Assembly: GCF_009765755.1 (NCBI RefSeq)
Contig: NZ_LMUV01000011.1
Coordinates: 1-64,000 of the forward strand
Direction of reading: 5' to 3'
Length of the DNA: 64,000 nucleotides
Source of the DNA: Rhodanobacter sp. L36
GTDB lineage: Bacteria > Pseudomonadota > Gammaproteobacteria > Xanthomonadales > Rhodanobacteraceae
Below the pieces are notes generated by a model. It ran no database searches. It was not told where the DNA came from and saw only the letters and a list, made by a program, of their open reading frames with translations. Below, one piece after another: positions 2,307-12,340 of the stretch; within the stretch, counting starts at the first letter, position 1, and every line of letters starts with the position of its first letter. A program made the position numbers and the translations under genes.

Positions 2307-5300
2307 ATGCGTACTTGGCAAGGGATCTGCCTCGCGGCAGTGCTGTTGGTTCTATCCGTTGGGTGCTATGCCCAGTCGACGCCTGATCAGGAATATCAAA
2401 AGCTGATCCAAGTCGATCCGAGCATTCAGCCGTTAGGTGAGCATCCGTTCGGCGAAAACGTCAACCTGTACGACGGCAGCTTCTCGTTCAACGTCACCGA
2501 CGTTTCCTTGCGCGGCAATGGTCCGAGCATCACCGTGGGACGAACTGCGCAGGATTTCGAGTGGATCAACGACACTCCGACTTCTAGTCCGCAACTCCCT
2601 CTCGGTAACTGGGATTTGGACATCCCTCGCATCGAAACTTTGGTGGCAACCCAGTTAGGCTGGCAGACAGGGGTAGGGGGGGCGACTTCAACGGTGGGTA
2701 CGACGAACCGATGCACCACGTTCAACATGCCACCCGGTATTGCTTCCACATCCAGCGAGGGGGGCTGGGTGCCGGATGAATGGTGGTACGGATACAACCT
2801 GTTGGTGCCGGGCGAAGGTAAACAACTTTTGATGCAACGCACAGCAGCCAATTCGCTGTCGCCTACCATCAGCGGCAAGAGTTTTTCGGTTGTCACCAAG
2901 AACAACTGGATGATTGGTTGCGGAGTCACTGCGAGCGATGGTGGAGAAGGATTCCTAGCAATCGCACCCGATGGCACGCGGTATACCTTTGCTCATCTCG
3001 TCTATCGTCCTTGGTACCGGATTGTAGGCGCAGGTGAGTTAACCCCTGACGTTACCCATCTCGCCAAATCGAGCGGCGCTTCGGCACAGAGTGCGTCGCC
3101 AATGGTTGGCGCTCCGGGAGGCATCGGAATCTTGGACCGAGAAGATGCGTTGATGTACGTCACGCAGATCCAGGATCGCTTCGGCAATACGCTGACCTAT
3201 AACTACGATCCTAGCTCGGGTTATCTCTCTAGCATCACCGCGAGCGATGGTCGCGAAGTGGATGTTGCCTATGTATCCGGTTCGCCGTTGATCCACACGA
3301 TCACTGCTAAAGCTACCAACGTAGCATCACGTACCTGGACTTACACCTATGGGTCTGGTCTGACGGGCGTGCAACTGCCCGATGGAAGTGCCTGGTCATA
3401 CAACCTGCCTCTTGGCCCAATGACCTTCAATGTATCGAACAGCAATTGTCAGCTTGACCAGCTTCCATACTTTACTTACCCCGTAGCAGGTGAGGTTGCT
3501 GGGACGATAACCACACCTTCCGGACTGACGGGTACATTTAGCTTCGGCATGAAACTAAGCGGCCGTTCGTACTCACCTAAATCGTGTTACGGATTCGATA
3601 ACGGGACCGCACCTTCGGCACTTTATCCGGAGTGGTCTATTCAACCTGCCATTACGGCCGAAGTACTGTCAGGTCCGGGTATGCCTGCGCAAAGTTGGAG
3701 CTACAGCTACTCGCCGGCAAACCAGAGTTGGGGCACTGACACCTGCGCAACGAGCGATACGTGTGTCAGCACTGTCTACACCGACGTCGTGGATCCCGAA
3801 GGGAACGACACCCGCTATACCTATAGCAATCGCTTCGATGCCACGGAAGGCCAGCTCAACCGAACGGATTACTACAGCGGAGCAGCGGGCGGCACCTTGA
3901 TGCGTTCGGAGGTCAATACGTATGCCAATCCCGTAGGCGGTCCATGGCCTGCCGCTTACGGAGCCGACATGCTGTACCGGGACAATCAAACACAAGTCAC
4001 GGAACTGTCGCCGATGAGTCAACGCGTCATCACGCAGAGTGGTGATACGTACACTTGGCAAGCGATTGGGTTCAACGCTTATGCCCAGCCGACCGACGTC
4101 AAGCGGTACAGCTCGATCACTGGTCAGGTCGGAGGAATCGAAGAGACGACGTCGTATCTCAACGACACCAGCTACTGGGTGCTAGGTCTGCCACTGCAGG
4201 TGACTAACCTTGGCACCGGCGATATCGAATCAGCCAACACCTATATAGCCAACGACACGCTGCTTACTCACTCTCGTTTCGGCCAGCCGCTGATGAGCTA
4301 CACCTTCAACAGCGCTGGTCAGCTGGCCAGTTTCACAGATGGCAACAGCAAGACAACATCGCTGGGCAACTACAAACGCGGCATTCCGCAGACCATCAAT
4401 TATCCGGATAGCACCAGTAAGACGCTGATCGTTGACGATCTTGGGCAGGTTTCCAGCATCACTGACCAAGCCAGTCACACCACCAGTTACAGCTACGATG
4501 CGATTGGGCGGGTCACAGGCATCATCTATTCCGCCGGTGACGAGGTGGCGTGGGCGCCGGAAACGTTCTCCTATAACTTTGTGACCAGTGCGGAGCGCGG
4601 TATCGCTGCCAACCATTGGAAGCGCACCGTCACCACTGGCAACGCCAACACGGTGACCTACTTTGACGCCATGTTGCGTCCTGTGCTGAGCGATAGCGAC
4701 ATCGGCAGCACGGTGCAGGCCAGCACGCTGACCACGTATGACTTCAAAGGGCAGAAGGTTTTCAGTGCTTATCCCAGCGCCACGGCGTTGACATACACGC
4801 CGACGCCCACCATCGCAGGCAGCATCACGACGTACGATGCATTGGAGCGCGTTACACAGATCCAGCAGACCTCGGAGCTAGGCACTCTGACAACCGGCAC
4901 CAAGTATCCACCCGGTGCAGAACAACAGGTCACCGATCCGAAGGGCAACGTCACTACCACCGGTTATCAGGTGTTCGACAGCCCGAGTTATGACGCGGTT
5001 ATCTGGGTTGATGCACCGGGTGGCATTACCCAGATCATTGCGCGCGACATCTACGGCAGTCCGACGTCGATCACGCAGTCAGGGCTATATGGTAGCGAGA
5101 GCGACAGTCTCAGCAAAACCATGGTCTACGACATCTATCACCGCCTGTGCCGCACGACTGAGCCGGAGAGCGGTGACACCGTAATGGCTTACGACGGCGC
5201 CAACAACATACGGTTCAGTGTGTCAGGGTTTACCGTTCCGCCCGGGTCCAGCCCATGTGGCAAGGAAACGGTTCCCACGAGCTCGCAGACCACATTTACT

Positions 5301-7451
5301 TACGACGCGATGAATCGCCTCAAGACGATTGTGCCGCCCGCTGGTACGCAGAGCACCACCTATGGGTACGATTCGGTCGGCCGCATGACCAGCGCCGTGA
5401 CTAATGCAGCCTCGGGAGATAACACTTGGAGTGGCACCTATAACTTCCGCGGCATGCTCACCGGCGAAAGTCTGCAAGTGGGCAGCCAAAGTCCCTGGGC
5501 GATCGGGTATGCGCACGACGCCAACGGCAGCCTCAGCTTTGTTCACTACCCTGACGGCGAAAATGTTAGCTACGTGCCAGATGCGCTCGGTCGCCCGACC
5601 CAGGCCGGCAGCTATGTCAGTGGCGTCGAATACTTCCCCAACGGGCAAGTCTCGGGATTTGTCTACGGCAATGGCATTGGCTATGCCGCCGAGCAAAACA
5701 CCCGGCAACTGCTGAGCAACTTCAGTTATGGACCGAGCAGCGCGGCGCAGCTGAGCGAAGACCTGGTTTACGACCAAAACGCCAACATCACCACCGTGAC
5801 CGATCTGGTTTCGGGTGGTCCACGCAGCAAGGCTTTCGGCTATGACGGGCTAAACCGGTTGACGAGCGCAACCGCCTCGGGTCTATGGGGTACGCAGGCG
5901 TACACCTACGACGCACTTAACAACCTGCGCACGCTGCAGACAAACGGTCAGACCGCGACTTACGCGTACGACACGAGTAACAAGTTGACAGGCATCAGCG
6001 GCGCACTCACCGCCAGCTACACCTACGATCCGCGCGGCAACGTGGCGACCAAGAACGGGATCACGTTGTTGTTCGATCAGAAAAACCAACTTACCCAGAT
6101 CGTCGGCACCGATAGCTACCAGTACGACGCGGCGGGTCGTCGGGTGAAGAAGACCTCGGCCGGTGCGGATACCTACTACTTCTACAACCAGGCCGGGCAA
6201 TTGATGTACCAGAACGGTCCGGGACCTGTTTCGACCAACTTTATTTACCTCGGCAGCAAGATAGTCGCGCGCAATGTCGATAACGCGCCCACGATCAGCG
6301 CACCGGCGCTCAGTAACAACGGTAGCTTTACGGTGAGTTGGTCGACGTTTGCCGGCGCCACAGGCTACAACTTGCAAGAGCAAGACAATGGTGGAACCTG
6401 GACATCGATCCTGAACGGAAGCTCTACCGCTAGCGCTATCACTGGCAAAAGCAATGGTAGCTACTCCTACGAGGTGCAGGCATGCAGCGCTAGCGCATGC
6501 ACTCCTTGGAGCAACATCGTGACCACTACCGTGCTCTTCATACCGGTCACACCATCAACCCTTACCGTGCCGACAACCAGTACAGGCACAGTGGCGGTGA
6601 GCTGGTCGGCCAGTGCCACGGCAAGCAGTTACACCCTTCAGCATCGTCTGGGCACCGGCGCATGGACGTCCGCTTACAGCGGTGCGGCAACCAGTGCTAG
6701 CGTCAGTGAAACTACCTCCGGCAGCTATACATACCAAGTAGAGGCCTGCAATGCGGGCGGCTGCAGCGCGTTCAAGCTCAGCAGTGCAGTGGCGGTGACG
6801 CGCCCCCCCACCAGCGCGCCGGTGTTGACGATACCAGCCACCAGTAGCACTGGCAGCTACTCGGTCAGTTGGGGTGCAGTGGCAAGCTCTGCGACGTATA
6901 CGCTGCAGGAAGCAGTGAATGGTGGCGCGTGGGCAACTATACAGGGAACCGGTGCGACCAGCGATGCCATCAGCGGCAAGGGTAGCGGTACGTACGGATA
7001 TCACGTGCAAGGCTGCAACGTCGCCGGATGTGGGCCATGGAGTACGACGGCGTCGATAAGCGTTTTACGCGTACCCGCGGCGCCTGCATTAGTCTCGGTA
7101 CCAAGCACAGCTTGCTATCAAGGCCCGGGATGTGGCTTCACTGTTGGCTGGTCCTCGGTAAGTGGAGCGACCAGTTATAACGTTCAAAAAACCACTACCA
7201 GCATAGCGTCAAATCCGGTCACAGCGGTTTACACGGGTACTGCAACCAGTGTTACCCAATTGGTTCTTGCAGGCACGTACGTGTATTCAGCGCAGGCTTG
7301 TAATGCTTCCGGGTGCTCAGGGTGGACAAATTCCGGCACTGTAACTGTGGTGACTTGCTCGTCCGAGGCGGTCAAGACGAGTGGCATGCAACCCGGCATT
7401 CCCAAGTGTGGAAACACGGCCACGGCAGTCCGTCAGGGAGGCACACCATGA
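2307..7451 (+). CDS. secreted RHS/YD-repeat protein with C-terminal FN3-like repeats
   Basis: This is a 1714-residue protein with a strong ribosome site (GGAGGGGA) just before the ATG. Residues 1-23 form a signal peptide ending ...GCYAQ. From about residue 290 to 1325 there are many YD repeats (for example TYNYDPSSG, SYSYDAIGR, YGYDSVGRM, YTYDPRGNV), which build the shell of RHS proteins. After IYLGSKIVARN, where the hyperconserved RHS core normally follows, four FN3-like repeats of ~90 residues occur instead (residues ~1327-1682, each with Val-Ser-Trp-Ser and a Cys-containing Tyr-x-Val-x-Ala-Cys strand). The core is encoded by the next gene, which overlaps in ATGA. The protein is probably exported through Sec; the role (toxin delivery shell, surface or adhesion function) is inferred. 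Confidence 0.85.
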   Translation: MRTWQGICLAAVLLVLSVGCYAQSTPDQEYQKLIQVDPSIQPLGEHPFGENVNLYDGSFSFNVTDVSLRGNGPSITVGRTAQDFEWINDTPTSSPQLPLGNWDLDIPRIETLVATQLGWQTGVGGATSTVGTTNRCTTFNMPPGIASTSSEGGWVPDEWWYGYNLLVPGEGKQLLMQRTAANSLSPTISGKSFSVVTKNNWMIGCGVTASDGGEGFLAIAPDGTRYTFAHLVYRPWYRIVGAGELTPDVTHLAKSSGASAQSASPMVGAPGGIGILDREDALMYVTQIQDRFGNTLTYNYDPSSGYLSSITASDGREVDVAYVSGSPLIHTITAKATNVASRTWTYTYGSGLTGVQLPDGSAWSYNLPLGPMTFNVSNSNCQLDQLPYFTYPVAGEVAGTITTPSGLTGTFSFGMKLSGRSYSPKSCYGFDNGTAPSALYPEWSIQPAITAEVLSGPGMPAQSWSYSYSPANQSWGTDTCATSDTCVSTVYTDVVDPEGNDTRYTYSNRFDATEGQLNRTDYYSGAAGGTLMRSEVNTYANPVGGPWPAAYGADMLYRDNQTQVTELSPMSQRVITQSGDTYTWQAIGFNAYAQPTDVKRYSSITGQVGGIEETTSYLNDTSYWVLGLPLQVTNLGTGDIESANTYIANDTLLTHSRFGQPLMSYTFNSAGQLASFTDGNSKTTSLGNYKRGIPQTINYPDSTSKTLIVDDLGQVSSITDQASHTTSYSYDAIGRVTGIIYSAGDEVAWAPETFSYNFVTSAERGIAANHWKRTVTTGNANTVTYFDAMLRPVLSDSDIGSTVQASTLTTYDFKGQKVFSAYPSATALTYTPTPTIAGSITTYDALERVTQIQQTSELGTLTTGTKYPPGAEQQVTDPKGNVTTTGYQVFDSPSYDAVIWVDAPGGITQIIARDIYGSPTSITQSGLYGSESDSLSKTMVYDIYHRLCRTTEPESGDTVMAYDGANNIRFSVSGFTVPPGSSPCGKETVPTSSQTTFTYDAMNRLKTIVPPAGTQSTTYGYDSVGRMTSAVTNAASGDNTWSGTYNFRGMLTGESLQVGSQSPWAIGYAHDANGSLSFVHYPDGENVSYVPDALGRPTQAGSYVSGVEYFPNGQVSGFVYGNGIGYAAEQNTRQLLSNFSYGPSSAAQLSEDLVYDQNANITTVTDLVSGGPRSKAFGYDGLNRLTSATASGLWGTQAYTYDALNNLRTLQTNGQTATYAYDTSNKLTGISGALTASYTYDPRGNVATKNGITLLFDQKNQLTQIVGTDSYQYDAAGRRVKKTSAGADTYYFYNQAGQLMYQNGPGPVSTNFIYLGSKIVARNVDNAPTISAPALSNNGSFTVSWSTFAGATGYNLQEQDNGGTWTSILNGSSTASAITGKSNGSYSYEVQACSASACTPWSNIVTTTVLFIPVTPSTLTVPTTSTGTVAVSWSASATASSYTLQHRLGTGAWTSAYSGAATSASVSETTSGSYTYQVEACNAGGCSAFKLSSAVAVTRPPTSAPVLTIPATSSTGSYSVSWGAVASSATYTLQEAVNGGAWATIQGTGATSDAISGKGSGTYGYHVQGCNVAGCGPWSTTASISVLRVPAAPALVSVPSTACYQGPGCGFTVGWSSVSGATSYNVQKTTTSIASNPVTAVYTGTATSVTQLVLAGTYVYSAQACNASGCSGWTNSGTVTVVTCSSEAVKTSGMQPGIPKCGNTATAVRQGGTP

Positions 7452-8461
7452 AGCTCGCTTTGATCATGTCGGCGGCGGTACTTCTGGGCCTTGGGAGGAC
7501 GACTCATGCAGGTTCAGTCACCTACGTCTACACCGATCCACATGGCACGCCACTGGCGGAAGCGGATGCGACCGGTACGATTACTGCGAAGTTTGACTAC
7601 GCGCCCTATGGTGCGGCGTCGACGGCGAGTGGCATGAGTGGGGCGCCAAATGGACCGGGGTATTCGGGCCATGTGAACGACCCAGAGTCGGGGCTCGTCT
7701 ATATGCAGGCTCGATACTACGATCCAAATGTGGGAAGGTTCATAAGCACCGATCAAGTCGCGCCTGATGCAGGCAATTCGTTTAGCTTCAACCGTTATGC
7801 ATATGCGAATAATGGGCCGGTCGTCCACGACGATCCGACGGGCATGGCCCCCGGCGATCCAGATGATTTCGATCATTCGGCCTATCCCGTCGGAGTGACA
7901 ATGTTTGGAGGGAATGATGATAGCGGTTCAGAATCTTCAGCGCCGCCCCAATCGAGTCCTAATCCGACAACGGGTGCGCCAACATCGACACAGAGCGCAA
8001 GCACCGATACTCCGACATCAACGGCATCGCAGATAGCAGCACAGCTTAATGGGTACAATAACGGCTTTGATATAGTGCCCGCCATCGACTTTACCAGCTG
8101 GAAAGTCGCAGCAGAAATTACAGAAGGAGAGTCTGCATCTGTCATTTCGCGCGGCGGTATCTTGGTCCAAGCTAATTCGGTCGGTGGCCCTTTCAAAACA
8201 GACGCCTTTGGATTTTACGTTGGTCAAAGACCACTCGATTTAAATGGCAATTATTTGTCGGTATCGGCGTCGCAAAAATGGAGTGACCCGACATATAACA
8301 GTAGTGGCTTGACAGGGTATGGAGCTGGCCACTCATTCAGATATTACGCGTTACCTGGGCCTGGTGGAAATAAGTGGACCGTTACTTTTCCATTGCAAGA
8401 GGATTGGCATCAAAATGCATCATTTGAAACGATTAGAATTTATACTCCTATGCACAATTAG
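7448..8461 (+). CDS. secreted RHS core-domain protein with variable C-terminal tip
   Basis: This 337-residue protein begins at the ATG of the ATGA overlap with the long RHS gene. It has its own signal peptide (residues 1-21, ending THA). Residues ~23-137 are the RHS-associated core: YTDPHGTPLAEADATG, FDYAPYG, GPGYSGHVND, YMQARYYDPNVGRF, NRYAYANNGP and the closing DDPTG. A Ser/Thr/Pro-rich linker (~155-200) leads to an unrecognised tip of ~137 residues. Base composition becomes clearly AT-richer in the tip, as expected of an exchangeable RHS tip. By analogy with polymorphic toxins the tip may be a toxin, but no catalytic motif is recognised. A small lipoprotein gene overlaps its 3' end. Confidence 0.8.
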   Translation: MKLALIMSAAVLLGLGRTTHAGSVTYVYTDPHGTPLAEADATGTITAKFDYAPYGAASTASGMSGAPNGPGYSGHVNDPESGLVYMQARYYDPNVGRFISTDQVAPDAGNSFSFNRYAYANNGPVVHDDPTGMAPGDPDDFDHSAYPVGVTMFGGNDDSGSESSAPPQSSPNPTTGAPTSTQSASTDTPTSTASQIAAQLNGYNNGFDIVPAIDFTSWKVAAEITEGESASVISRGGILVQANSVGGPFKTDAFGFYVGQRPLDLNGNYLSVSASQKWSDPTYNSSGLTGYGAGHSFRYYALPGPGGNKWTVTFPLQEDWHQNASFETIRIYTPMHN

Positions 8462-8798
8462 CTTATGTGCTTGCCGTCATCAGAAAGAGCTCCCATTTCG
8501 AGCGGACTGCATTGTCGAAGTAAAAGCGACGGATCTGACCTTGCCGAGTTTCCAAGAGAGCGGTCTAAACACTCTTATGAACGTGTCCTGGCAACTCAAA
8601 ATTCCGCTAGCGGGATATTCCGTCCAAAGTAAGAATGTCGCATATTTTCAATTCAAGAGTCAGTGTCCGTCCAGAGTGGCTTTGAGCAATACCCTTTTAT
8701 CGAAAATATTCCCTCAAGGGGGATACGTTGTTAGTGCCAATAACGTCGAGCCTGGAACCAATACTGTCGAAATAAGGGGGGCAAGTTGGCGCGACTAG
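8415..8798 (+). CDS. small lipoprotein, candidate immunity protein
   Basis: The 127-residue product starts inside the 3' end of the RHS tip gene (47-bp overlap, different frame). Its N-terminus is basic and hydrophobic and ends in the lipobox-like LCAC (Cys20), so export and lipidation are likely. The mature part is of mixed alpha/beta character and not recognised. It lies directly downstream of a variable RHS tip, shares the AT-rich composition of that tip and is predicted to be periplasmic, which fits an immunity protein against an exported toxin. This role is inferred from position only. Confidence 0.6.
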   Translation: MHHLKRLEFILLCTISLCACRHQKELPFRADCIVEVKATDLTLPSFQESGLNTLMNVSWQLKIPLAGYSVQSKNVAYFQFKSQCPSRVALSNTLLSKIFPQGGYVVSANNVEPGTNTVEIRGASWRD

Positions 8799-9423
8799 CT
8801 GTCGTTCTACACACTGTGAAAAAGGATCAAGGAAGTTACGACGCTGAGCTCCGGGCTTGAAGGAAGGCGAATTGGCCGCGCGTGCTCATAGTTTATAACG
8901 CGTGTGCTCGCGATGAGTAGGCTGCTAGCGTTGAAGTCAGAGAGGTCCGCATTCGACGGCAGTCTCAGCCGGTCGATGCAAGGACCTGTTTGTGTTGCTT
9001 GCTGTTAGCTAGAAGAAATTTCGTTCTTGGTCGAACGGGCTGTAGCTGAAATGAAGGTGAGTCTTTAAGAGCTGCCTACACTTCGCCTGCCAGGCCCAAA
9101 GCATTACATCCAAATCGGATGGATTCTTCGCTATAGTCAAACGGCGCCCGTTGCCACGGTTACAGTGCGCCACAGGTGACACCGGCGGATGGAGCAAAAG
9201 GTGGTTTACGTTGCAAGCCTGGACTTGCGACCTCAATGAGGCTTTGCCTCTAAAACGGTTGTGTTTGGCACCTTGAAGTTGGCGAGTTCTAAGTGTCCGC
9301 CGTTATCAGCCAATGAGCATTGGGCAGGTACGGCGCGAAGCCTCTGCTCCGATCGAAAGAATTCGATTGGCCTCTTCCGCAAATGCGAAAAGTCATCTGA
9401 GTCGGCGATTCATCAGCGTCGAA
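8799..9423. other. intergenic stretch without recognised gene
   Basis: These ~625 bp follow the candidate immunity gene and precede the 3' end of the HxlR-type gene. Short open frames exist on both strands but none has a convincing start, codon pattern or family resemblance. No hairpin with a T-run was found. Confidence 0.5.
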
Positions 9424-9792
9424 CTAAGGCAAAGAGTCGCGCTGGGCGAAGATGCTCACCATTTCCGCCATGTTCTGTGTGCCCCATGTGCACAGCGGAA
9501 CGATTGCGTCGGCCAGGCTGCGACCAAATGGGGTTAACGCGTAGTCCACGCGCGGCGGCACCTCCTTGTAGTCGGTCCGCGCCAGCACGTGATAGGCCTC
9601 CAGATCTTTCAGTTGCTGGATCAGCACCTTATCGCTGACGCCGCGGATCGTGCGCTTGAGTTCGCCGTAGCGCTTCGGTCCGTCAAGCAGGAAATACAGA
9701 ATTTGCGGCTTCCACTTGCCCGAGATGACGCGGAGCGTGGCAGCCAGCCCGTGGGAATAGCGACCACCACAGTTCTCAGAACAGTCCGTCAT
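9424..9792 (-). CDS. HxlR-family winged-helix transcriptional regulator
   Basis: This 122-residue protein has the full-length HxlR pattern: an N-terminal Cys-containing segment (MTDCSENCGG), then ISGKWKPQILYFLLDGPKRY, ELKRTIRGVSDKVL, LKDLEAYHVLARTDY and VPPRVDYALTPFG. Members are small dimeric regulators, often responding to electrophiles or redox stress through a cysteine. It is divergent from the SDR operon at 9902 and probably controls it and itself from the ~110-bp shared promoter region. Cys4 and Cys8 are candidate sensing residues, by inference. Confidence 0.9.
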   Translation of the reverse strand: MTDCSENCGGRYSHGLAATLRVISGKWKPQILYFLLDGPKRYGELKRTIRGVSDKVLIQQLKDLEAYHVLARTDYKEVPPRVDYALTPFGRSLADAIVPLCTWGTQNMAEMVSIFAQRDSLP

Positions 9793-9795
9793 TTG

Positions 9796-9819
9796 ATACT
9801 TACCAAAAAGTGCATACTT
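9796..9819. promoter_or_regulatory. candidate HxlR operator (direct ATACTT repeats)
   Basis: Between the divergent HxlR and SDR genes the hexamer ATACTT occurs at 9796-9801 and again at 9814-9819, spaced 18 bp start to start, in an AT-rich island. This is consistent with a regulator site immediately upstream of the HxlR start. Assignment to HxlR is inferred from position. Confidence 0.35.
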
Positions 9820-9901
9820 GTTGTTAGGTTATCTCGATCACATCCTTGTACTCAAGCAAGCGGCTCCCGCTTCCGCACAACTTCAACCAAGGACACATGA
9901 C

Positions 9902-10636
9902 ATGAACAGACTGAAAGGTAAGACCGCCGTGATCACCGGCGGCGCGACCGGCATCGGCCTCGCTGCAGCAAAGCGCTTCATCGAGGAAGGCGCATTCGTC
10001 TTCATCTACGCCCGCCGACAGGAAATGCTCGACGCTGCTCTAGCGGAACTCGGACTCAACGCTCGGGCAGTGAAGGGCTCTGTATCGGATGAGGCCGATC
10101 TCGATCGACTCTACGCGGCGGTGAAGGCCGAGCGCGGAACGCTCGATATTGTGTTCGCCAATGCCGGCGCCGGAAGTCAGGCTGCGCTTGGCAAGATCAC
10201 CGCCGAGCACATCGACGAGCACTTCAACACCAACGTGAAGGGCACGATCTTCACGGTCCAGAAGGCGCTGCCGCTGATGGGTAAAGGCGGCTCGATCATC
10301 CTGACCGGATCAAGCGCCGGCACCACGGGTGCTCCGGGCATGAGCGCCTACAGTGCGAGCAAGGCGGCAGTGCGCAATCTCGCGCGCACCTGGGCGGAAG
10401 ATCTGAAAGGCACCGGTATCCGGGTCAACGTGCTGTCGCCCGGGGCCACGGCCACCGAACTCGCAAAGCAGGCGCTGGGCGAGGAAGGCCAGAAGGTTTA
10501 CGCATCGATGACTCCGCTCCTGCGCATGGCAGACCCGGCGGAAATCGCGGCGGCGGCTGCGTTCCTCGCGTCATCGGACAGCAGCTTCATGACCGCCAGC
10601 GAAGTCGCGGTCGATGGCGGCTTGGCGCAACTTTGA
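9902..10636 (+). CDS. SDR-family NAD(P)-dependent oxidoreductase
   Basis: This is a classical short-chain dehydrogenase of 244 residues. It shows the nucleotide motif TGGATGIG (12-19), FANAGAG (86-91), a catalytic serine in LTGSSAG (137/138), and Tyr150 and Lys154 in YSASK, then the LSPGATATE loop and a C-terminal VDGG motif. The substrate cannot be inferred. The ATG at 9902 was preferred to upstream in-frame codons because the family N-terminus begins there. It is the first gene of a three-gene operon divergent from an HxlR-type regulator, a common arrangement for stress-induced reductases. Confidence 0.9.
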   Translation: MNRLKGKTAVITGGATGIGLAAAKRFIEEGAFVFIYARRQEMLDAALAELGLNARAVKGSVSDEADLDRLYAAVKAERGTLDIVFANAGAGSQAALGKITAEHIDEHFNTNVKGTIFTVQKALPLMGKGGSIILTGSSAGTTGAPGMSAYSASKAAVRNLARTWAEDLKGTGIRVNVLSPGATATELAKQALGEEGQKVYASMTPLLRMADPAEIAAAAAFLASSDSSFMTASEVAVDGGLAQL

Positions 10637-10707
10637 CGCATACGTCCGGCAGCACTCCATTCGATCGTCTGGAGTGCTGCCGGGCTTGGTAACCCGAGGA
10701 GAAAAGC

Positions 10708-11307
10708 ATGAGCTACGCCATTATCGGCTTCGGAAATATCGGCCAGGCTCTGGCCAAGGCCTTTGCCCGCAACGGCATCGAAGTATCCGTGGCAACCACA
10801 CGCGACCCGGAAAGCTTTGCATCCGACGCGGCCGCGATCGGGCCCGGCATCATTCCCAAAAAACTGGACGAAGCGCTCAAAGCGGACATTGTCTTTTTGG
10901 CCGTCCGTTTCGAGTCTCACCAGGATGTCGCGAAGGCGCTGCCCCACTGGAAGGGCAAGATCATCATCGATGTGACCAATGCCTACGGCGTGCCCCCTGA
11001 GGAACTGGGAGGTCAGCCTTCATCGAAAGCCGTGGCGCAGGTTTTCACGGGTGGAAGACTGGTCAAGGGTTTCAATCATTTGGGTGCTGCCGTTCTTGGC
11101 CAGGATCCTGCGGTCCATGGCGGCAGGAGAGTCGTGTTTCTTGCGAGCGACGATAACGATGCTGCAACAGAGGTTTGCGCGCTTGCGGAAAGCCTCGGCT
11201 TCTCGCCAATCAAACTCGGCGGGCTTTCGGAAGGTGGGCTGCTTGTGCAGGCGCGCGGAAACGTCTGGGGTCCACTGATCTTCAAGGACCTGATCAAGTT
11301 CGACTGA
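10708..11307 (+). CDS. NAD(P)-binding oxidoreductase, F420-reductase-like (COG2085)
   Basis: This 199-residue protein begins with a Rossmann fold (YAIIGFGNIGQALAKAF), followed by IVFLAVRFES, KIIIDVTNAYG and VKGFNHLGA, the pattern of the NADPH-dependent F420 reductase/'predicted dinucleotide-binding enzyme' family. Proteobacterial members without F420 are probably general NAD(P)H-dependent reductases. A ribosome site (GAGGAG) lies just before the ATG. It sits 71 bp after the SDR gene and probably shares HxlR control. Confidence 0.85.
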   Translation: MSYAIIGFGNIGQALAKAFARNGIEVSVATTRDPESFASDAAAIGPGIIPKKLDEALKADIVFLAVRFESHQDVAKALPHWKGKIIIDVTNAYGVPPEELGGQPSSKAVAQVFTGGRLVKGFNHLGAAVLGQDPAVHGGRRVVFLASDDNDAATEVCALAESLGFSPIKLGGLSEGGLLVQARGNVWGPLIFKDLIKFD

Positions 11308-11376
11308 CAAGCCGTGGATCGCCGACTCGCTCGCGGCGCGCTTGTCGAATTCAAAAACGCAATGGAGGAAATCCCG

Positions 11377-12009
11377 ATGTACGACCCAACCAGGCAATCC
11401 GAATTGATCCGTTTCGCACGCGCAGGTGCGGGCTCCACCGTCATCGACGTCTATCCCGGCGACGGCGACTGGACGCGTCTCTTCTCCGACGTGGTGGGAG
11501 CCGAAGGACATGTCTACAGTTTCGTGCCGACCGAAATTGCCGACGTGAAGCCCGATCAATTGGACAACATGCGGGCGCTCGCGAAGGAGCCGGGCCGAGA
11601 GAACGTCGAAGCCGTCTCAGCGGACCTCGTCGCGATGCCGGACGTCACGCCACCAGCGGATGTCTTGTGGCTGCACCTGTTCTATCACGATCTCCATACC
11701 GCGCTCATCCAGGCCAAGGGTGCGACGGCGGCCGACTTCAACCGAGTCGTCTACGAACAACTCAAACCCGGTGGGTTCTACGTCATCGTCGACCATGCCG
11801 CTGCAGCAGCGGCTGGCACGAGCGACACCCAGTCGCTGCATCGGATCGACCCTGTGTCCGTTCGCGTGGAGGTGGAGGCGGCTGGCTTCGTGCTGGATGC
11901 GCAAAGTACTCTGCTCGCAAACAAGGATGATCCGCACTCGGTCAAGGTGTTCGACGCCTCGATCAAGGGCGAAACTGACCGGTTCGTCTATCGGTTCGTG
12001 AAGCCTTGA
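11377..12009 (+). CDS. predicted SAM-dependent methyltransferase (COG4798-like)
   Basis: This 210-residue protein has a class I methyltransferase-like fold: VIDVYPGDGDWTRLFSDVVG replaces the usual DxGxGxG loop, followed by GHVYSFVPTE, a central DVLWLHLFYHDL strand and LKPGGFYVIVDH. The start at 11377 has GGAGG 8 bp upstream; an in-frame ATG at 11362 would overlap that site. It is the last gene of the HxlR-flanked operon. Substrate unknown. A 7-bp-arm hairpin without a T-run (12052-12073) follows. Confidence 0.75.
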   Translation: MYDPTRQSELIRFARAGAGSTVIDVYPGDGDWTRLFSDVVGAEGHVYSFVPTEIADVKPDQLDNMRALAKEPGRENVEAVSADLVAMPDVTPPADVLWLHLFYHDLHTALIQAKGATAADFNRVVYEQLKPGGFYVIVDHAAAAAAGTSDTQSLHRIDPVSVRVEVEAAGFVLDAQSTLLANKDDPHSVKVFDASIKGETDRFVYRFVKP

Positions 12010-12340
12010 AGGACGCCGATCGCAAGTAATGTGGCCTGACCGAAGCGAAGGCATGCCAAGGCGGCGTGGCATGGGATACAGGAACTAGGCCGAGGCAAGT
12101 TTCAGCCTGTAAGTGCCTCGCTACTAGCCTAAATTTTTTCCCTGCTTGGCCGCTTTGGATTCCCTGCAACAAAGTGTAGGGAATTGCCCAGCCTTCCTAG
12201 GCGGCGGGCCTATTTTTAGCGCTCCTGATGGTGCTCGGATGGTTCTTTTCCCCAAATTCCCTGCTGTTTTCCCTGAAAGCAGGGAAAAAGGCCGTTGAGA
12301 CAAGTTCGCACGAGACTCGTAGCACCGCCAAACAGACAGA

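Follow-up and report, generated by a model that had tools for sequence, protein, structure and literature searches.

How would an RHS cage be closed and loaded when its shell and its core are made as two proteins, each with its own export signal? This question is raised by the first 64,000 nucleotides (hereafter the window) of contig NZ_LMUV01000011.1 of the soil bacterium Rhodanobacter sp. L36 (assembly GCF_009765755.1), where the gene of a large YD-repeat protein, P0001, overlaps that of a small protein, P0002. An RHS cage is thought to fold round its own cargo from a single chain or, in the case of Tc toxins, a pair of chains. In the window, the large chain has fibronectin type III (FN3)-like repeats where the core should be, and the core is encoded by the small gene. 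From comparisons of sequences and predicted folds, we consider it probable that the locus encodes an RHS polymorphic toxin whose plug and cargo are exported as a protein of their own that completes the open shell in trans. The cage and cargo probably join outside the cytoplasm. Of the features that define RHS polymorphic toxins, a YD shell, a TIGR03696 core, a hypervariable tail, and the aspartate pair of the core are present, but shell and core are not in one chain. The window begins at the start of the contig, and the genome (3.98 Mb) has a single TIGR03696 match.

The division of labor between the two chains is clear from domain searches. RHS repeats were found on the large protein only (RHS_repeat, E 6e-29), and Pfam and NCBIfam scans gave no core-domain match on it. 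TIGR03696 matched only the small protein (E 9e-21, residues 51–133, all 76 model positions). The match of the shell hidden Markov model (HMM) to P0001 stops at residue 1323, and after IYLGSKIVARN come the FN3-like repeats. Sequence searches detect these repeats weakly (fn3 at E 0.2, which is under its cut-off; ChitinaseA_N at E 6e-7), and the predicted fold shows them more clearly. The AlphaFold2 (AF2) model of large-protein residues 570–1714 has a mean confidence of 84.4 and a predicted TM-score of 0.62; its best Foldseek matches are a teneurin-like protein (9ifo, top) and RHS and Tc shells, with the fibronectin arrays 6tpw and 3t1w further down. Signal peptides were assigned by eye and by hydropathy: the hydrophobic N-terminus of the large protein reads GCYA/QSTP, and the small protein starts with MKLALIMSAAVLLGLGRTTHA followed by G, with the core directly after. 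The stop of the large and the start of the small open reading frame (ORF) overlap in ATGA at 7448–7451, and a Shine-Dalgarno-like CAGGGAGG lies ahead of the small start at 7434–7441. The earlier note on this DNA had described two exported chains, a core on the second gene, and FN3-like repeats in the place of the core, and its description was borne out.

By alignment, the core of the small protein is the counterpart of the C-terminal plug/aspartyl protease by which RHS barrels are closed. P0002 residues 24–135 match the end of Photorhabdus laumondii Rhs1 (7pq5, 1236–1344), and the other solved-structure matches are Tse5 and RhsP. Two successive segments of RhsP (8h8a) are shared out between the window's proteins, 879–1015 matching P0001 1172–1293 and 1048–1151 matching P0002 22–132. 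In the available part of PMC8636562, the C-terminal plug of Rhs1 is given as residues 1263–1357, an aspartyl protease domain deep in the barrel; its numbering and that of our 7pq5 match were not reconciled. The presumed autoprotease aspartate pair is kept in the window and in all 142 distinct cores outside YD chains.

The arrangement recurs widely. TIGR03696 matched in 29 of the 45 genomes of the window's genus and, at 1e-22, in 124 of 299 genomes of the order. We classed 74 regions from the genus, 78 named loci (from the best 80 of 137), and 40 regions from the order, picked by hand among the matches listed. These yielded 139 core rows from the genus and named loci, with identical core-to-end sequences entered once, and 50 from the order; since the loci were partly chosen by their small core, row counts are not frequencies. 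Cores behind a chain with both shell and FN3 number 56 (37 and 19 in the two sets), those behind an FN3-bearing frame only 13 and 1, and those in one chain with YD repeats 40 (39 and 1). Five cores lie at a contig edge. Rows without a shell nearby (44 of 139 and 29 of 50) include fragments, other RHS families, and second array copies; L142 was misregistered as an orphan. At most 400 nt behind a separate shell-bearing chain lie 57 cores, in 56 cases with FN3 in that chain; the exception, L046, is a short frame of another RHS family whose shell has no FN3.

After duplicates were removed over all sets, 56 pairs with distinct small proteins show the gene order of the window, more than chance would produce, and the coupling described in the earlier note is conserved. 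These pairs were selected for FN3. Their first chain extends to the last positions of the shell HMM (1294–1296) and carries 1–9 FN3 copies; because the HMM ends at that point by construction, this shows that the shell is complete and not exactly where it breaks. The core starts a median of 87.5 nt past the stop, a 4-nt overlapping start is available in 25 pairs, and a start lies within ~30 nt in 45. In the 139-row set, a simple hydropathy cut finds a hydrophobic segment ahead of the core in 36 of the 37 coupled rows and in 37 of the 44 uncoupled ones, and the small proteins of relatives have a hydrophobic N-terminus, often ending AHA/G, with the core following at once. None of the 40 chains with YD repeats and core has FN3 between the two; a Fisher test of FN3 against split used 56/0 and 0/40, without L046. 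Only L065, L067, L099, the fragment L096, and L182 among these 40 belong to the clade of P0001, the rest being more distant RHS proteins. In nearly all cases seen, the chain with the shell end carries FN3 whenever the core is on a separate chain.

Trees place the single-chain genes among the split ones. In a tree of 102 shell tails, the 65 FN3-ending shells fall within one group of 71 (support 99), which also holds five single-chain genes and L175, a shell without FN3 detected in its frame. Inside the split group lie L067, L099, and L096, as one group, and, apart from them, L065; L182, from a Rubrivivax metagenome-assembled genome (MAG), stands beside shells of a second family. In a full-shell tree of 72 rows, the placement of all eight fused rows outside was rejected (approximately unbiased (AU) test, p 0.0045). 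The single-chain relatives L065, L067, and L099 have the same shell joined to the core by 3–8 residues, with no FN3. The simplest history would be a split ancestor and two re-fusions, each losing FN3. Separate proteins that are fused into one chain elsewhere often act together, and FN3-less single-chain genes nested in the split clade are as expected if shell and core cooperate.

The shell itself can also be divided. In another family of the order, it is cut again at HMM position ~581: in L225 and L229, the first gene encodes the shell to 580–581, and the second encodes the remainder together with the core, behind a signal-like N-terminus of its own. In L230 (genome G262, reverse complement 5833–12209), there are three genes: the shell comes in two signal-bearing pieces, 2–581 and 581–1295, the second with one FN3, and the core lies ~0.9 kb further on as a signal-peptide protein; L226 has these three parts in another order. 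The genus also contains a second two-gene type whose first chain ends in FN3 (L039, L075, L085, L086, L090, L097, and L100). Its second chain consists of a signal-like N-terminus (clear in several), a few hundred YD residues, and the core; these seven second chains are counted among the 40 chains with YD repeats and core.

We propose a pathway for assembly and action based on this gene organization. Both chains would be exported by Sec across the inner membrane, and the large chain would fold as an open YD barrel. The small chain would then supply the last strands and plug the barrel, its tail being held inside or at the mouth, and the FN3 array, still attached to the shell, might serve as a cap, a spacer, or a binding arm. 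An exit route, possibly type II secretion, would release the complex; the tail would act on a neighboring cell, and the probable lipoprotein encoded after the small gene would protect the producer. As the core is a gene of its own, the cargo would be exchangeable by swapping or adding a small gene. The features of the locus are collected in Table 1.

Table 1 Features of the two-gene RHS locus and the overlapping ORF, in window coordinates
Feature	Position	Strand	Basis
Large gene P0001 (1714 aa), secreted shell protein with YD repeats and an FN3-like array at the C-terminus	2307..7451	+	
Putative Sec signal peptide of the large protein, residues 1–22	2307..2372	+	sequence, by eye
YD shell, residues 24–1323, complete to the usual core position	2376..6275	+	HMM, AF2, Foldseek
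Four FN3-like repeats, ~residues 1329–1680	6291..7346	+	repeat alignment, AF2 strand pattern, Foldseek
Coupled junction: Shine-Dalgarno-like site and ATGA overlap	7434..7451	+	read from sequence
Small gene P0002, secreted RHS core with variable C-terminal tail, 337 aa	7448..8461	+	
Putative Sec signal peptide of the small protein, residues 1–21	7448..7510	+	hydrophobic segment, cleavage-like THA/G
RHS core, residues 22–132, corresponding to the C-terminal plug/aspartyl protease region, ending DDPTG	7511..7843	+	
Variable C-terminal tail, candidate toxin domain, fold unassigned	7844..8458	+	genome comparison, low-confidence AF2
Overlapping ORF, 127 aa, probable lipoprotein, candidate immunity protein	8415..8798	+	by eye (LCAC); position

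Among known systems, the Tc pair TcB–TcC (YenB with YenC1-3) is similar in forming a hollow RHS shell from two polypeptides, with the variable tail on the second and an orphan second-chain gene acting in trans. According to the available part of PMC11067744, Tc shells consist of two RHS chains, and the orphan YenC3 assembles with YenB; the premise of the earlier note that an RHS shell normally closes as one chain overlooked this and was therefore too strict. The split in the present locus lies just before the core, whereas that of Tc lies within the barrel, and the mature small protein starts at the core, unlike the Tc second chain with its several hundred YD-barrel residues. In addition, each chain here has a signal peptide, the first one closes with an FN3 array, and the searches found neither TcB domains nor a TcA partner. 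To our knowledge, Tc chains are without Sec signal peptides. What differs from the Tc precedent is thus the split point, the second signal peptide, the FN3 tail, and the missing TcA.

The YD barrel, C-terminal aspartyl-protease plug, and hypervariable tail are shared with the Rhs effectors of the type VI secretion system (T6SS), such as P. laumondii Rhs1, Tse5, and RhsP. These effectors are single chains with T6SS-specific N-termini, whereas the plug and tail here form a separate exported protein, and P0001 has a signal peptide in place of such an N-terminus and no Pfam match to PAAR or VgrG. Teneurins, as described in the accessible portion of PMC13018210, have an FN-plug before the NHL and YD parts in one chain; in contrast, FN3 follows the shell here, and no NHL match was found on P0001 with Pfam. 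Bacterial teneurin-like proteins (9ifo) are alike in their YD shell, fibronectin-type domain, polymorphic C-terminal tail, and, in part, signal peptide. In the Sec-exported RHS/WapA toxins known to us, core and shell are on one chain. The resemblance to these polymorphic toxins (PMC3482391) lies in a Sec-exported YD protein with a variable tail; the words "fibronectin" and "FN3" were not found in the part of that text available. Orphan Rhs toxin modules are described as incomplete gene fragments (PMC11067744, in the same partial text), and additional cassettes of core, tail, and immunity gene are found here as well, some of them next to what is left of the parent gene tail. Most small genes, unlike such fragments, have their own signal-like N-terminus, and the small proteins could be made without recombination. 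We found no description of a two-gene shell/plug arrangement in the open-access literature, with few subscription papers covered.

The distribution of shells and small cores was compared across genomes. With a genus shell defined as P0001-type (best E at most 1e-200, tallied by hand), 20 of the 45 genus genomes have a shell and a small core, 2 a small core only, none a shell only, and 23 neither (Fisher p 7e-11, kinship ignored), an association that arises mostly because the two genes are coupled. G009 counts among the 20 through its single-chain gene, and G039, G040, and G042 through incomplete frames. In another family, 14 of 17 genomes with a small gene matched P0001 at 1e-40, against 0 shells in 16 small-less controls; the controls belong to the same family as the window, which confounds family with trait, and one control, G272, matched P0001 only in the FN3 part. 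Seven of the 17 have only uncoupled small genes at the fetched loci: three have no shell, and four have one elsewhere (G306 and G114, each with a coupled small gene there; G293, only in pieces; and G097). From 32 of the 78 named loci, 30 genomes were reached, and 26 matched P0001 at 1e-40, including G072 with a single-chain gene and G073 with the FN3 part only; the other four are three MAGs and one genome-mining bin. TssC is present in the window genome and missing from 6 of the 20 shell-bearing genus genomes (G001, G010, G011, G013, G039, and G043), so the system is not tied to a T6SS, and T6SS dependence was rejected on this ground together with the lack of PAAR and VgrG.

Other explanations of the locus were considered. 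A single RHS gene might have been frameshifted recently, and a start codon might happen to lie behind the break. The same shell does occur in single-chain relatives (L065, L067, and L099), and in L126 (836–2099, genome G073) one open frame holds a remnant of FN3 and a signal-peptide core but no YD repeats. The earlier note had named one continuous gene in the same order as the sign of such a break, but the order YD-FN3-core occurs in none of the 40 chains; moreover, the split state spans the clade with the single chains nested inside, the pairs recur 56 times, and the small proteins have a hydrophobic N-terminus in 36 of the 37 rows checked. A frameshift or pseudogene is ruled out by the recurrent pairs, the missing order, and the nesting, leaving a recent break with a negligible probability. 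It is also highly improbable that P0001 and P0002 are TcB and TcC of a Tc (ABC) toxin, even though the two-chain shell logic, the variable tail on the smaller chain, and the orphan small genes are as in Yen-Tc. The TcB domains SpvB and TcdB-mid have no match on P0001 up to E 1, and the TcA domain PF18276, the only TcA domain searched, is absent from the window genome (G000) and occurs in 1 of 45 congeners. Furthermore, the small chain has only ~110 aa of core, starting at its mature N-terminus, while 97% of TcC proteins have 851–1050 aa (PMC7861908, in its available part). Tc membership was rejected on these grounds.

Alternatively, the small core could be a lone secreted toxin that keeps its RHS core as a handle for folding or recombination, and the large YD-FN3 protein could be an independent surface protein or adhesin. 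The many small genes without an adjoining shell gene, the hydrophobic segment just before the core in most uncoupled rows, and the genomes without a detectable P0001-type shell (G202, G155, G121, G014, and G023) would agree with this explanation. We regard it as unlikely because the plug/protease aspartates are invariably kept, though in known RHS proteins they act inside a shell (PMC8636562, from the part available), because the core alone is predicted to fold poorly (AF2 of the mature small protein, mean 49.8, above 90 only for approximately the first 30 residues), and because shell and core are tightly coupled in 56 pairs and were re-joined in two lineages. A transient complex, in which the small core displaces FN3 only at the target or cell surface and the large protein serves chiefly as a carrier that binds a receptor, would explain why FN3 sits at the core position of single chains and is missing from re-fused genes, and teneurins have an FN-plug in the YD superfold (PMC13018210, partial text); the placement of FN3 in the barrel mouth is conjectural, however, and this explanation seems quite improbable.

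Our preferred reading, a shell closed by a separately exported plug, also has observations against it. That the two chains bind is something we infer. Two of the 22 small-carrying genus genomes (G014 and G023) and 3 of the 17 genomes of the other family, one of them a single contig, have a small gene without a P0001-type shell; the latter three, G202 (L189), G121 (L190), and G155 (L187), have signal-peptide cores, in tandem in L189 and L190, and no P0001 match at 1e-40. The idea that orphan small genes always have a shell in trans was accordingly not upheld. Core distances in 50 pairs track the shell middle (r 0.775) more than the shell tail (0.715), with partial correlations of 0.156 (p 0.046) for the tail given the middle and 0.449 for the middle given the tail, and of 0.085 and 0.367, respectively, within the window's family; co-divergence of core and shell tail thus gave no specific signal of contact. 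GspD is present in 45 of 45 genomes and is hence uninformative on the exit route. AF2 modeled the small chain poorly, from 50 sequences whose tails differ and without a control fold. Quick trees, in which the program flagged long branches, gave the nesting of the single chains, and the group for the AU test was named only after the first tree was seen. The first DPxG of the aspartate pair is degenerate, and only the alignment identifies its aspartate. Of 137 small cores, 103 have R or K directly after DPxG, whereas 22 of 28 fused ones have L or M, which suggests an altered cleavage site; the single chains of the P0001 clade carry R there as well, and the window core reads DPTGM, set against the cleavage motif PxxxxDPxGL. 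Autocleavage, or the protease itself, may differ in small cores.

The tails following the core are highly variable. That of the window (205 aa) had one full match among 398 genomes, to itself, and one weak partial match. The 92 tails taken right after DPxG fall into 38 families, and known domains were few among the 93 tails scanned: Tox-REase-7 in three, OTT_1508 deaminase in two, and lysozyme, M91, HNH (two models), MafB19 deaminase, and M15 in single tails, with further matches of the BPSL0067 and endolysin type. These counts exclude L036, L046, L079, L091, L093, and L168 as fragments or members of other RHS families; a minus-strand row of L172 was also removed by hand from the tail set (93/94 references). 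According to a rough classifier, the next gene in 97 rows, some of which were later excluded, is signal-like in 42, lipoprotein-like in 9, membrane in 12, and cytosolic in 31, and there is none in 3. This tail variety, together with next genes whose products mostly look exported or membrane-bound, fits a toxin-immunity arrangement with mixed targets. A third ORF, which adds to the account of the earlier note, overlaps the end of the small ORF at 8415–8798 and sits as the next genes of relatives do; its product, signal-peptide-like by the same classifier, is a candidate immunity protein by position. In L043, L048, L181, and L186, small core genes are arranged in tandem, and later copies lie behind a short remnant of the large-gene tail, as if the duplication unit were large-gene tail, core, variable tail, and immunity gene. 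L053 (1074–15963, genome G038) has a truncated core-tail three times at ~7.3 kb spacing, the third copy shortened, with an integrase-like ORF recognized by eye.

If the proposed assembly is true, closing and loading of an RHS cage can follow translocation; this would give a handle on how cargo enters RHS shells, with the natural re-fusions and divided-shell versions at hand for comparison. Many of the short "RHS repeat-associated core domain-containing" proteins of Lysobacterales may then be cargo plugs of a carrier and not gene debris. More tentatively, and in our view less likely than not, Lysobacterales might build RHS cages outside the cytoplasm from separately exported parts (a shell in one or two pieces and a plug-toxin), with one shell closed by any of several plug-toxins, encoded adjacently, in tandem arrays, or elsewhere, and FN3 holding the open mouth until the arrival of a plug.

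Additional genes were noted at several loci. Between the shell and small core genes, the Dyella loci L138 (4522–5677) and L140 (4114–5248; both stop-to-stop) encode a secreted-looking protein of ~380 aa, and L133 and L167 have two short secreted-looking ORFs. In the window, a GAF sensor histidine kinase is encoded at 1097–2200 on the minus strand, and an EF-hand protein with a weak XopAW-family match below the cut-off is encoded at 128–1120 on the plus strand.

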